A stretch of DNA of 64,000 nt from Ruminococcus sp. (lineage in GTDB: Bacteria; Bacillota; Clostridia; Oscillospirales; Ruminococcaceae), in contig JAAVHJ010000010.1 in NCBI GenBank assembly GCA_014799805.1, positions 110,652 through 174,651 on the forward strand. The letters run 5' to 3'. Both the position numbers and the translations under genes were made by a program. The notes below the pieces were generated by a model. It did not search any database. It saw only the letters and a program-made list of their open reading frames with translations, and was not told the origin of the DNA. Below are positions 45,971 through 51,103 of this stretch, piece after piece; position 1 is the first letter of the stretch; each line of letters starts with the position of its first letter.

Positions 45971-46960
45971 TTAGACTGGTTCAGCCTGTGAGGGCAATTC
46001 AATTGTTTCTAAATCTTCACTAATTGCTAATGGCAGTGGTATCATTTGAAATACTTGTCTTGATGTGATTCCAGCAAATATCGGAACATCTTTTGCTTCC
46101 TCTCTGAAATAACCGCTTGCATAAATTTTGACATTATAAGTTGCATAGGGTTTTATATTTTCAGGCTCTTGTGATAAATTCGCAGGCGGTGCAGGCAAAT
46201 TTACAACGGGAGTCAAACCGCTTTCATCTGTTTTTAAAATATAATTCAACATTGTTTTGCCATCAATCTGGCTATAAATTGTCACTCTTGCATCAGGTAC
46301 AGGATATGCACTATCTGCTGTTGAGGCAACAATATAAAGTTTTCCTTCAGCAGTGTTGCGTTGTTCATAAGCTTCTTGTGCAGTCCATTCCTTTGGCAAA
46401 ACAGGCTTGACTGGTTGGATATAGTCTGGCAAAACAGGTTCTTCGTATTCAATAACTGGCTCTGGTTCTAATTCAAGTTTTGGCTCTGGGATTAATACTT
46501 CTGGAGCGGATTCTCCATGAATTTCTGTTATATCTGGTTCCATAGGTTCTGCCATGACAGATATTATTGCAGAATCTTGTTCCGAATTTTCTAATATATT
46601 TCTTGGTTGTGGTGGCTGTGGATTGATTGGTTTTTGTGGCGGTTGCGGATTGATTGGCTTTGGTGGCGGTGACGGATTGGTTGGCTTTGGTGGCGGTGAC
46701 GGATTGGTTGGCTTTGGTGGCGGTGATGGATTGGTTGGCTTTGGTGGTGGTGACGGATTGGTTGGCTTTGGTGGCGGTGATGGATTGGTTGGCTTTGGTG
46801 GCGGTGATGGATTGGTTGGCTTTGGTGGCGGTGACGGATTGGTTGGCTTTGGTGGTGATGGCGGATTTGGGGGTTTTGGGGGCGAAGTTGGTCTATTACT
46901 ATACATTCTTAACATTTCTTCACGGTATTTTTTCGCAAGTTCAGATAATGAATCTGGCAT
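45971..46960 (-). CDS. Proline-rich repeat protein with C-terminal beta-sandwich domain
   Basis: The 329-residue protein has a short helical head ('SLSELAKKYREEML'), then a Pro/Lys/Thr/Asn-rich tract with the nine-residue unit TNPSPPPKP repeated seven times plus degenerate ends. An acidic linker and a C-terminal carboxypeptidase-regulatory-like domain follow ('GKLYIVASTADSAYPVPDARVTIYSQIDG', 'YNVKIYASGYFREEAKDVPIFAG'). The start at 46960 follows AGGAGG; the track adds 11 residues upstream. No signal peptide is visible. It heads the three-gene peptidoglycan-binding operon and may be a spore-surface or wall-associated spacer protein. Confidence 0.8.
   Translation of the reverse strand: MPDSLSELAKKYREEMLRMYSNRPTSPPKPPNPPSPPKPTNPSPPPKPTNPSPPPKPTNPSPPPKPTNPSPPPKPTNPSPPPKPTNPSPPPKPTNPSPPPKPINPQPPQKPINPQPPQPRNILENSEQDSAIISVMAEPMEPDITEIHGESAPEVLIPEPKLELEPEPVIEYEEPVLPDYIQPVKPVLPKEWTAQEAYEQRNTAEGKLYIVASTADSAYPVPDARVTIYSQIDGKTMLNYILKTDESGLTPVVNLPAPPANLSQEPENIKPYATYNVKIYASGYFREEAKDVPIFAGITSRQVFQMIPLPLAISEDLETIELPSQAEPV
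46650..46880. repeat. 27-bp coding tandem repeat
   Basis: About seven near-identical copies of a 27-bp unit (plus strand GGTTGGCTTTGGTGGCGGTG...) encode the TNPSPPPKP repeats of the minus-strand gene. Only third-position changes such as GGC/GGT and GAC/GAT separate copies, so the array is young and could vary in length between strains. The opposite strand is also open and Gly-rich, which produced two shadow ORFs. Confidence 0.9.
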
Positions 46961-47038
46961 GCATATAACCTCCTTTTCTAATGATTCTGACAAATTATAT
47001 GCCTGATTTCTAAATTCTATGCTAATTTTTCTGCTAAC

Positions 47039-49324: not shown

Positions 49325-49331
49325 TATAAAA

Positions 49332-49369
49332 AAATTCGTCCAGTTTTTGCACTGAACGGATTTTTTTTA
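49332..49369 (+). terminator. Terminator of the ADP-ribosylglycohydrolase operon
   Basis: ATTCGTCCAGT and ACTGAACGGAT pair with one mismatch around a 6-nt loop and run into T8. Confidence 0.85.
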
Positions 49370-49399
49370 CATAATTTTAAAAAAATTTTCAAAAAAGGG

Positions 49400-49429
49400 T
49401 TGACAAAAAGCCCCTTGATATGTTAGAAT
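49400..49429 (+). promoter_or_regulatory. Promoter of the rep-like gene
   Basis: TTGACA (49400-49405), 18 nt and TAGAAT (49424-49429). The transcript would carry about 145 nt of folded leader before the rep-like start. Confidence 0.65.
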
Positions 49430-49452
49430 GAAGTTGCAGAAAAATCAAACAA

Positions 49453-49556
49453 ACAATCAGGAGGGCTTCTTGCTATAGGACAGGAGAAACCGCCCTATAC
49501 TATTCATCAATTCATTAATAGTATAGCATATTTTCTCCTGATTGTCAAGTGTTTTT
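49453..49556 (+). promoter_or_regulatory. Structured leader with mutually exclusive stems (possible attenuator)
   Basis: ACAATCAGGAG (49453-49463) pairs perfectly with CTCCTGATTGT (49535-49545), and CAGGAGAAA (49481-49489) pairs perfectly with TTTCTCCTG (49532-49540). Both need the same CTCCTG, so the two stems exclude each other. Inside lie CTATACTATT (49495-49504) with AATAGTATAG (49517-49526), and a competing TATAGG (49474-49479) with CCTATA (49494-49499). The last stem runs into a T6 tract (TCAAGTGTTTTTT). AGGAGG followed by TTG CTA TAG at 49470 could be a two-codon leader ORF. No known riboswitch class is recognised. Confidence 0.6.
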
Positions 49557-49581
49557 TGAAAAAAAATTAGGAGGAATTTTT

Positions 49582-50499
49582 ATGCAATTAGTAATCGAAG
49601 ATAAATCATGGAATAGATGTGCCAGACAAGTGAGACGAAACAGGAAAATCACAAGAACAGCAGAAAATCTACATATGACGCTGTTAGACAGATGGGACGG
49701 AACTAACACTGTACAGATGTCAAATACTGCCATTGAAAGAGAGCTTAACTGCTGTCATCAGAGTGTGATTAATGCAAAAAACCGTTTAGTTGAATTAGGC
49801 TTAGTGCAGATAGCAGAAAGAAAAAACCCAACTGAAACCACATCATTTATTATTCAACCAGTTTTACCACCAAAGAGAAATTGTAAAGCTAGCAAACCTG
49901 TATCAGAAAAACAATCAGATACACAACCTAAAAAACCAAAAAAAGTTACAGCTAAAAAACCGTCTGAACCAGCTAAGAAAAAATATGGCAAAAATGGTCG
50001 AGTTAGATTAACAGATGAAGAATTTGCTAATTTGATAACTGATTTCGGAGAAGAAGTTGTAAGAGACTACATTCAGAGAGCGGACAACTATAGCGTAGAA
50101 CACAACAGATGGTATAAAAATAACGCTGAAACTATCCGTAAATGGATTTTAGAAGATAAAGAAAAGCCGAAATTCAAAAATAAACAATCGAAAAAAGATA
50201 AATTTACAGACGAAGAATTACAAGGTTATTTGTCACTGGTTTGGAAATCTAGCCCAGAAGATTTAGAAAATTTAAAAAAATCCGAAGAAAGTTGCATAAA
50301 CAAAACGGAATGTAAAGAAATTGAACCTCCAGTACGTCCAATAGGATATGAATTGACGGACGAAGAAATTGAAGCAATAGAAAATTTACATTTTGAAACG
50401 ATTTTGAACAACTCTCTTCACCCGTTGTATTATTGCACGCCAGGCGAGTTAATGGTTCTTGCTGAACAGTGGAAAAAATATAAAAAACTGTTGTTATAG
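49582..50499 (+). CDS. Phage/plasmid replication-initiator-like protein with winged helix
   Basis: The 305-residue protein has residues 1-95 forming a winged helix seen in phage replisome organisers and plasmid initiators ('LHMTLLDRWDGTNTVQMSNTAIERELNCCHQSVINAKNRLVELGLVQIAER'). A Lys/Pro-rich linker leads to a segment typical of such proteins, 'RLTDEEFANLITDFGEEVVRDYIQRADNYSVEHNRWYKNNAETIRKWI'. The acidic C-terminal part is not recognised. AGGAGG lies 8 nt before the ATG at 49582. Structured non-coding DNA lies on both sides and no other mobile gene is adjacent. It may be a relic or a self-contained element; its role is unproven. Confidence 0.7.
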   Translation: MQLVIEDKSWNRCARQVRRNRKITRTAENLHMTLLDRWDGTNTVQMSNTAIERELNCCHQSVINAKNRLVELGLVQIAERKNPTETTSFIIQPVLPPKRNCKASKPVSEKQSDTQPKKPKKVTAKKPSEPAKKKYGKNGRVRLTDEEFANLITDFGEEVVRDYIQRADNYSVEHNRWYKNNAETIRKWILEDKEKPKFKNKQSKKDKFTDEELQGYLSLVWKSSPEDLENLKKSEESCINKTECKEIEPPVRPIGYELTDEEIEAIENLHFETILNNSLHPLYYCTPGELMVLAEQWKKYKKLLL

Positions 50500-50905
50500 A
50501 TTTCTAAAAGCCTACTGGCTTGAATATCTGAAAAAAGGCTGTTGCAAAACGGTCTTTTCGTGTTGTCTAAATTTAATTAAAAACAAAGAAAATTATCACA
50601 ATAGAAAATTCTATCATTAATTTTTGTATAGAATTTTACATTATGATAATTTTTTTATATTTTTAGCTAATCTAAAATTTAGATTAGTACTAGTATAAAA
50701 ATTAGACTAATTTTTTTCTGCACATATTATAATATATATTTTCAGAATATTTTTCAGAGTGTTGTAACAACAACAACAACAATTGCAATTACAAAATCAT
50801 TGATATTATCTATGAAAGCACAGCAATATATTACTAAACTTGATTTTGATATTAGTATTAAGCAAATTAAAAAAAATTCTCCCTATGATATACAGGGAGA
50901 ATCTT
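50500..50905. other. Structured non-coding stretch behind the rep-like gene
   Basis: About 400 bp hold no credible gene. A two-tier hairpin (AAAATTATCA 50589-50598 with TGATAATTTT 50644-50653; inner AAAATTCTAT 50605-50614 with ATAGAATTTT 50628-50637) ends in T7 and is the probable rep-like terminator. A 21-bp palindrome with 10-bp arms CTAATCTAAA/TTTAGATTAG follows at 50667-50687. Next come ATTAGACTAAT and a short CAA microsatellite near 50768. A 44-codon ORF from 50812 overlaps the opposite terminator and is not supported. Confidence 0.6.
50868..50903 (-). terminator. Terminator of the DUF896 gene
   Basis: On the minus strand GATTCTCCCT and AGGGAGAAT pair and run into a T8 tract, a few bases past the stop. 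Confidence 0.85.
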
Positions 50906-51103
50906 TCATTTGCCTAATTTGCGTTTATTGCCATGTTCATCCATAATATAAGTATTTTCTAACTGACTCGTTAAATTATTTCTAAATTCTTGACGATACT
51001 GGTTTCTGAGTAACTCTTGTTCGGCTTGTTCTTCTTGCGTTAAGCCAATTGTTTTAGATTTTCGTGCCAGTTCATTAATACGCTGGATTAATTCTGATTG
51101 CAT
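50906..51103 (-). CDS. DUF896 (YnzC/YneJ-like, UPF0291) small protein
   Basis: The 65-residue helical-hairpin protein opens 'ELIQRINELARKSKTIGLTQEEQAEQELLRNQYRQEFRNNL' and ends 'NTYIMDEHGNKRKL', which is the whole UPF0291/DUF896 family. In Bacillus yneJ-type genes are linked to the SOS operon yneA-yneB-ynzC, but the function is unknown. GAAAGGAA precedes the ATG. It is a single gene between terminators. Confidence 0.9.
   Translation of the reverse strand: MQSELIQRINELARKSKTIGLTQEEQAEQELLRNQYRQEFRNNLTSQLENTYIMDEHGNKRKLGK

Follow-up and report, generated by a model that had tools for sequence, protein, structure and literature searches.

The DNA analysed here, a window of 64,000 nucleotides from a 2.48-Mb draft genome of Ruminococcus sp., carries midway along a 263-kb contig an ORF of 305 aa (rep; 49582-50499, plus strand). 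The original prediction of a winged-helix, initiator-like gene was borne out, as the product gave a match to HTH_36, weak and under the Pfam cut-off, as well as hits in families of phage replisome organizers and of replication-initiation proteins. Its classification as a winged-helix replication initiator is based on these family matches, on its relatives, on its predicted structure and on its dN/dS ratio against a sister copy. The AlphaFold model was modest (pLDDT 63.6, pTM 0.30) and comprised a confident winged helix, a helical middle domain and C-terminal helices. The top Foldseek matches of the predicted N-domain were 4pql (N-terminal domain of a DNA binding protein) and 5kbj (a Rep-DNA complex), both of which we take to be RepA_N domains; the E-values (2e-3 to 6e-3) did not fall below 0.001 and come from a model with the pTM given above. 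By sequence, Rep had no Pfam match to RepA_N or to Rep_trans, and a PDB sequence search yielded no match. The phage and plasmid collections contained no protein or DNA match to the rep locus, and a known phage or plasmid was rejected as its identity on this basis.

The ORFs neighbouring rep encode ADP-ribosylglycohydrolase-like, DUF896 and nucleoside phosphorylase-like proteins, and a search of the surroundings for structural, lysis and integration genes of an intact prophage found none. Elsewhere in the window (45971-46993, minus strand) lies a gene for a protein with many tandem PKPTNPSPP repeats. The neighbours of rep also occur together in the sister genome G323, where the space between them is taken up by a HigBA-like toxin-antitoxin (TA) pair in place of rep. 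The site is thus variable, and rep was most likely inserted into the chromosomal DNA at this point, in line with the original prediction. The inserted segment, composed of the leader, rep and a conserved 3' region, spans approx. 1.5 kb (49,330-50,870), and its ends most likely lie, judging from the sequence comparison, at ~49330 and ~50870. The right flank is formed by a host terminator hairpin (50872-50906), which also adjoins the glycohydrolase gene in G323. The TA pair of that genome (L049, G323:C208, 2318-3123) is placed between two copies of a CTCCC terminator hairpin. Alignment of the 3' end of the glycohydrolase gene with window positions 50560-50890 revealed no significant target duplication (the score lay within the range of shuffles, 15% of which scored as high); a mobile element with a duplicated target was therefore rejected. 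The suggestion of an undescribed minimal mobile element found no support from ends, an integrase or direct repeats.

Both structures predicted downstream of rep, a two-tier hairpin and a palindrome with 10-bp arms, were identified, and parts of this DNA proved to be conserved in other replicons. Directly behind the gene, a conserved 3' element (TGAATATcTGAAAAAAGGCTGTTGCAAAACGGTCTTTTCGTGTTGTCT; 50521-50575, plus strand), consisting of a terminator-like hairpin and conserved flanks, was matched in seven further replicons, with E-values between 1e-10 and 1e-18. It is followed by an AT-rich region (50593-50783) with a putative origin function, suggested by its conservation, which contains (i) the two-tier hairpin (50593-50650), (ii) the palindrome (50667-50687), and (iii) a conserved block (50735-50783) with 81% identity to phage contig L108 (E 2e-7). 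Three iteron-like repeats CTTATGTAAAAATT are present in L108, and the palindrome of the window occupies a comparable place. The conservation of the 3' region, together with these repeats, points to an origin that is likely to lie downstream of rep, as in the Inc18 plasmids.

Relatives of Rep were detected in a range of replicons. The closest one, with 87% identity and a premature stop, occupies the same locus in another sister genome (G327, L009). Genome G325 contains two full-length relatives (~41% identity), one (L059) on a contig that also encodes an XRE protein and an integrase of the tyrosine type, and the other (L060) accompanied by tail-fibre-like, lysozyme-like and Dam-like genes (names assigned by reading the sequences). 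A search with the conserved 3' motif led to another full-length homologue in a 33.5-kb viral contig, which encodes terminase, portal, capsid and tail proteins and an integrase, with a serine resolvase gene after the origin-like region; this contig is probably circular, since one ORF reads across both of its ends. Phage contig G428 carries genes for terminase, portal and capsid proteins, and the G325 contigs carry those for an integrase and lysin-like proteins. In L064 (G428) and L108, conserved genes for a resolvase and an AAA-ATPase-like protein separate the origin-like region from the late phage genes. The genome of the window itself contains a different initiator, of 513 aa, flanked by the same leader and 3' element (L109, G000:C5), and its relatives are flanked likewise. 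The L109 region resembles a mobilizable plasmid, with two XRE genes, the initiator gene, a serine resolvase gene and a Mob_Pre relaxase gene, plus ParA in one relative. The order in the phage and plasmid relatives is XRE – leader – rep – 3' region, and the XRE gene is missing from the window copy. The homologues are thus distributed over both phage and plasmid replicons, and the copy in the window stands alone with an intact ORF, i.e. it is not merely a truncated version of a gene confined to intact prophages.

Analysis of the leader confirmed that two stems, of 11 bp (ACAATCAGGAG, 49453-49463, with CTCCTGATTGT, 49535-49545) and 9 bp (CAGGAGAAA, 49481-49489, with TTTCTCCTG, 49532-49540), are present at the predicted places and both require the segment CTCCTG (49535-49540). 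When the 5' leader was paired with the 3' arm, the energy reached -21.7 kcal/mol, compared with -11.2 kcal/mol in dinucleotide shuffles, none of which (0/500) was as strong. A feature absent from the original prediction is that these stems are built around what the promoter scan identifies as a strong sigma70 promoter of the minus strand (49520-49548). It comprises TTGACA (49548-49543) and TATACT (49525-49520) separated by 17 nt, with TATGC before the -10 box and an A/T tract upstream; promoters of the same type occur elsewhere in the genome. The spacer holds the segment shared by the competing stems, so the 3' arm, or anti-Shine-Dalgarno (anti-SD; TTTCTCCTGATTGT, 49532-49545, plus strand), doubles as the spacer of the antisense promoter. 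The T6 tract expected after the last stem is present (49552-49557), but it is not obviously a terminator tract of the sense strand and corresponds to the A/T tract (AAAAAACAC) found ahead of several TTGACA promoters in this genome.

The remaining parts of the leader, all on the plus strand, are (i) a candidate rep promoter (TTGACA-18-TAGAAT, 49400-49429), recognized by a consensus scan, (ii) the two 5' arms (49453-49489), which are able to hold the 3' arm, (iii) an inner hairpin (CTATACTATT/AATAGTATAG, 49495-49526) seen in the predicted fold, and (iv) the Shine-Dalgarno sequence (SD; ATTAGGAGG, 49566-49574), which can pair with positions 49532-49542 according to folding. Comparison of the leader with its own genome revealed a dozen matches of ~50 bp, nearly all of them to a single part of it. 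Most of the six sites inspected were ordinary sigma70 promoters (AAAAAACACTTGACA-N17-TATAAT), and a dispersed repeat was therefore rejected as an explanation. One site (L005, G000:C10:249186-249234), with 84% identity over 50 bp to the sense rep promoter, is a promoter that precedes an ORF encoding a GDHPRACGEK-like peptide, which may form a repeat array. The Rfam covariance models gave no match to the leader, and a known RNA family was rejected, as none of the Rfam plasmid antisense RNA families matched.

A motif search of 38 genomes of the genus, 398 genomes of the family and viral contigs provided five more complete leaders. They precede (i) a gene for a Toprim/AAA_25 primase-helicase-like protein (L146, G303:C6), (ii) a gene which, by sequence reading, is similar to the latter (L173, G325:C136), (iii) an HTH_36 initiator of 469 aa (L165), (iv) a large serine recombinase of 475 aa (L172, G312:C68), and (v) a viral ORF with no assigned function (L205). 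It would be unusual for a recombinase to be under antisense control; the L172 leader contains a perfect terminator hairpin as well as a sense promoter of its own, and the predicted SD switching is absent from it. Together with seven rep leaders, these five loci form a set of 12 that share one anatomy: a 5' arm and a 3' arm complementary to each other, an antisense promoter that overlaps the latter, a terminator hairpin that forms a proper stem solely in the antisense RNA, and an anti-SD/SD helix. The antisense promoter, with its 17-nt spacer, was found at the same position in all of them. The 12 loci are partly related, and some of the counts over them are consequently not independent. Because loop lengths differ, MAFFT aligned the leaders poorly, and the arms were compared by a script with the register set by the antisense -10 box. 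The pairing of the 5' and 3' arms exceeded that of shuffles in 12/12 loci (p<=0.036 each), and cognate arms paired better than partner-swapped ones (P=0.00025), and both sides showed exchanges from A-U to G-C. Among 64 matches to the promoter motif, an ORF lay downstream in all 11 that had an upstream inverted arm versus 10 of the 53 that did not (p=5e-7). The leader stems are therefore conserved in homologues; a lack of such conservation had been named as grounds for abandoning the original prediction.

The window leader is bordered by a GC hairpin (ATTCGTCCAGT/ACTGAACGGAT) at 49334-49361, extended to 49327 by a U-run on the minus strand (49333-49327); its counterpart, CCGyCCrGTG/CACyGrACGG, adjoins the leader in 11 other loci. 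This hairpin showed 12 cases of A.C in the sense strand (G.U in the antisense strand) against one reverse case (p=0.003). The asymmetry and the position of the U-run are most simply explained if it is the terminator of an antisense RNA. On this basis, the predicted transcript would start at ~49513 and cover ~185 nt (49328-49513, minus strand). The terminator is situated ~100 nt farther off in the window than in its relatives, and the sense promoter lies between the terminator and the arms; in the phage and plasmid copies the predicted RNA reaches the hairpin over a shorter distance.

Whether the leader could act without any antisense RNA, as a cis-acting attenuator or riboswitch-like structure in which the minus-strand promoter is a chance product of AT-rich DNA, has to be considered, given that the stems do compete for one segment and that the promoters of this host are AT-rich. 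We judge this very improbable: the position and spacing of the promoter have been kept in 12 loci with different downstream genes, the terminator hairpin pairs as the antisense strand would, and there was no Rfam match. The logic of attenuation or copy-number control, originally proposed for these stems, holds in that the leader resembles copy-number control; a self-acting attenuator is not supported, and the anatomy points to an antisense RNA acting in trans.

Folding indicated how such an RNA might operate. The unpaired probability of the window SD was 0.42 in the full leader and 0.00 without the 5' arm, but it was only 0.05 when folding began from the first arm instead of close to the start of the transcript, so the switch of the window is sensitive to the chosen 5' end. 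Across the 12 loci, the SD was hidden by removal of the 5' arm, an effect that was significant (combined p=1e-5; Wilcoxon p=0.002), with the full leader more open than the occluded one in 10/12. The predicted switch left the SD unopened in L165 and L172, and opened it little in L060. U5-U7 tracts were observed after the anti-SD helix in several leaders, and folding does not tell a translational block from transcription attenuation.

We propose the following mechanism. The rep mRNA would start near 49,436 and, as it emerges, its 5' arm would pair with the downstream 3' arm, leaving the ribosome site open so that Rep is made. The minus-strand promoter within the 3' arm would give rise to an antisense RNA able to pair with the 5' arm and, with many copies of the gene, enough of this RNA would be present to occupy that arm. 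The freed 3' arm would then fold onto the SD, and Rep synthesis would stop. The same antisense RNA might instead cause transcription attenuation of the pT181/pIP501 type, with the anti-SD helix and the U-tract before the start codon as a terminator. U5-U7 tracts do follow this helix just ahead of the ATG in most leaders, and the RBS-containing stem-loop IV of pT181 is a terminator (PMC5703833). However, the helices are A/U-rich and the U-tract begins a few nt past them, while the conserved feature is the pairing of the SD itself, although these points are not decisive; we regard attenuation as the less probable of the two. The sequences themselves show the two promoters, the arms and their conservation, the antisense terminator and the module common to phages and plasmids. 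That the antisense RNA is transcribed, that the block acts on translation and not on transcription, that Rep binds to the 3' region and that the locus has any present function on the chromosome is what we infer.

The history of the locus was traced by comparison with G327. The leader (49396-49581, 186 nt) is 100% identical in both genomes, while rep shows a dN/dS of 0.23 and a dS of 0.25, similar to the neighbouring glycohydrolase gene (dS for rep and the flanking genes, 0.2-0.46). A shared copy with gene-like divergence indicates that the element is older than the split of these genomes, and the leader seems to have been under strong selection or recently homogenised. The homologues in phages, the premature stop in the sister copy and the lack of other phage genes or an integrase nearby would fit a decayed prophage, with rep and its leader as functionless leftovers. 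We consider such a remnant unlikely, because the invariance of the leader and the dN/dS of rep suggest that at least the leader has probably been selected since the split; a mobilizable plasmid is, moreover, an equally good source. The chromosomal copy could also have been retained for its RNA, which would silence the rep genes of invading phages or plasmids with a matching leader (a domesticated, incompatibility-type immunity). This is a rather improbable scenario, and no invader with an identical leader target was found in the viral contigs searched or elsewhere in the genome. In our opinion, the locus is, with good probability, a chromosome-borne orphan replicon from the phage and plasmid pool of the genus, equipped with an antisense-RNA copy-number switch that hides the SD.

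Antisense-RNA control of copy number is a hallmark of plasmids. That a single leader design precedes phage and plasmid initiators, primases of the Toprim type and, as it appears, a large serine recombinase suggests a control cassette that is passed from one unrelated gene to another within one group of gut bacteria. If confirmed, this would provide a signature by which replicons of little-studied gut Firmicutes can be searched for, help in the construction of Ruminococcus vectors, and offer a clear case for asking whether resident phages use plasmid-type copy control.

No description of this leader/rep system was found in the open-access literature, but several known replicons share parts of it. 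The 5' arm resembles the pre-emptor of pT181, which keeps the RBS stem unformed (PMC5703833), although Rep_trans and Rfam family matches are lacking here. The Inc18 plasmids pIP501 and pAMbeta1 combine CopR with RNAIII and have oriR downstream of repR (PMC4981023). This parallels the XRE-type regulator upstream (in the phage and plasmid relatives only), the predicted antisense RNA on the leader and the origin-like region downstream; however, no link between the Rep sequences was found, and the control of pIP501 is by transcription attenuation (PMC4981023). The hybrid initiators of pPR9/pUSA03 have an HTH pfam13730 N-domain and an antisense-controlled leader (PMC5703833), and thus also place a phage-like HTH_36 N-domain under such a leader; the HTH_36 match of the Rep described here fell short of the Pfam cut-off. 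The staphylococcal RepA_N plasmids pSK41 and pSK1 share a Rep of ~300 aa with an N-terminal winged helix, and an antisense RNA (RNAI, predicted in the present case) on the rep leader. RNAI of pSK41 inhibits by hiding the rep ribosome site (PMC5703833), the logic predicted here by folding in 10/12 leaders. In the pSK41 type, the origin lies inside rep and the antisense promoter ~100 nt upstream, whereas here the conserved non-coding region follows rep and the antisense promoter is inside the anti-SD arm; according to the review, RepA_N plasmids of other genera do not seem to have such antisense systems (PMC5703833). The replicon described here would therefore represent a variant of the antisense-controlled type which, by sequence homology and Rfam, falls outside the known families and is common to phages and plasmids.
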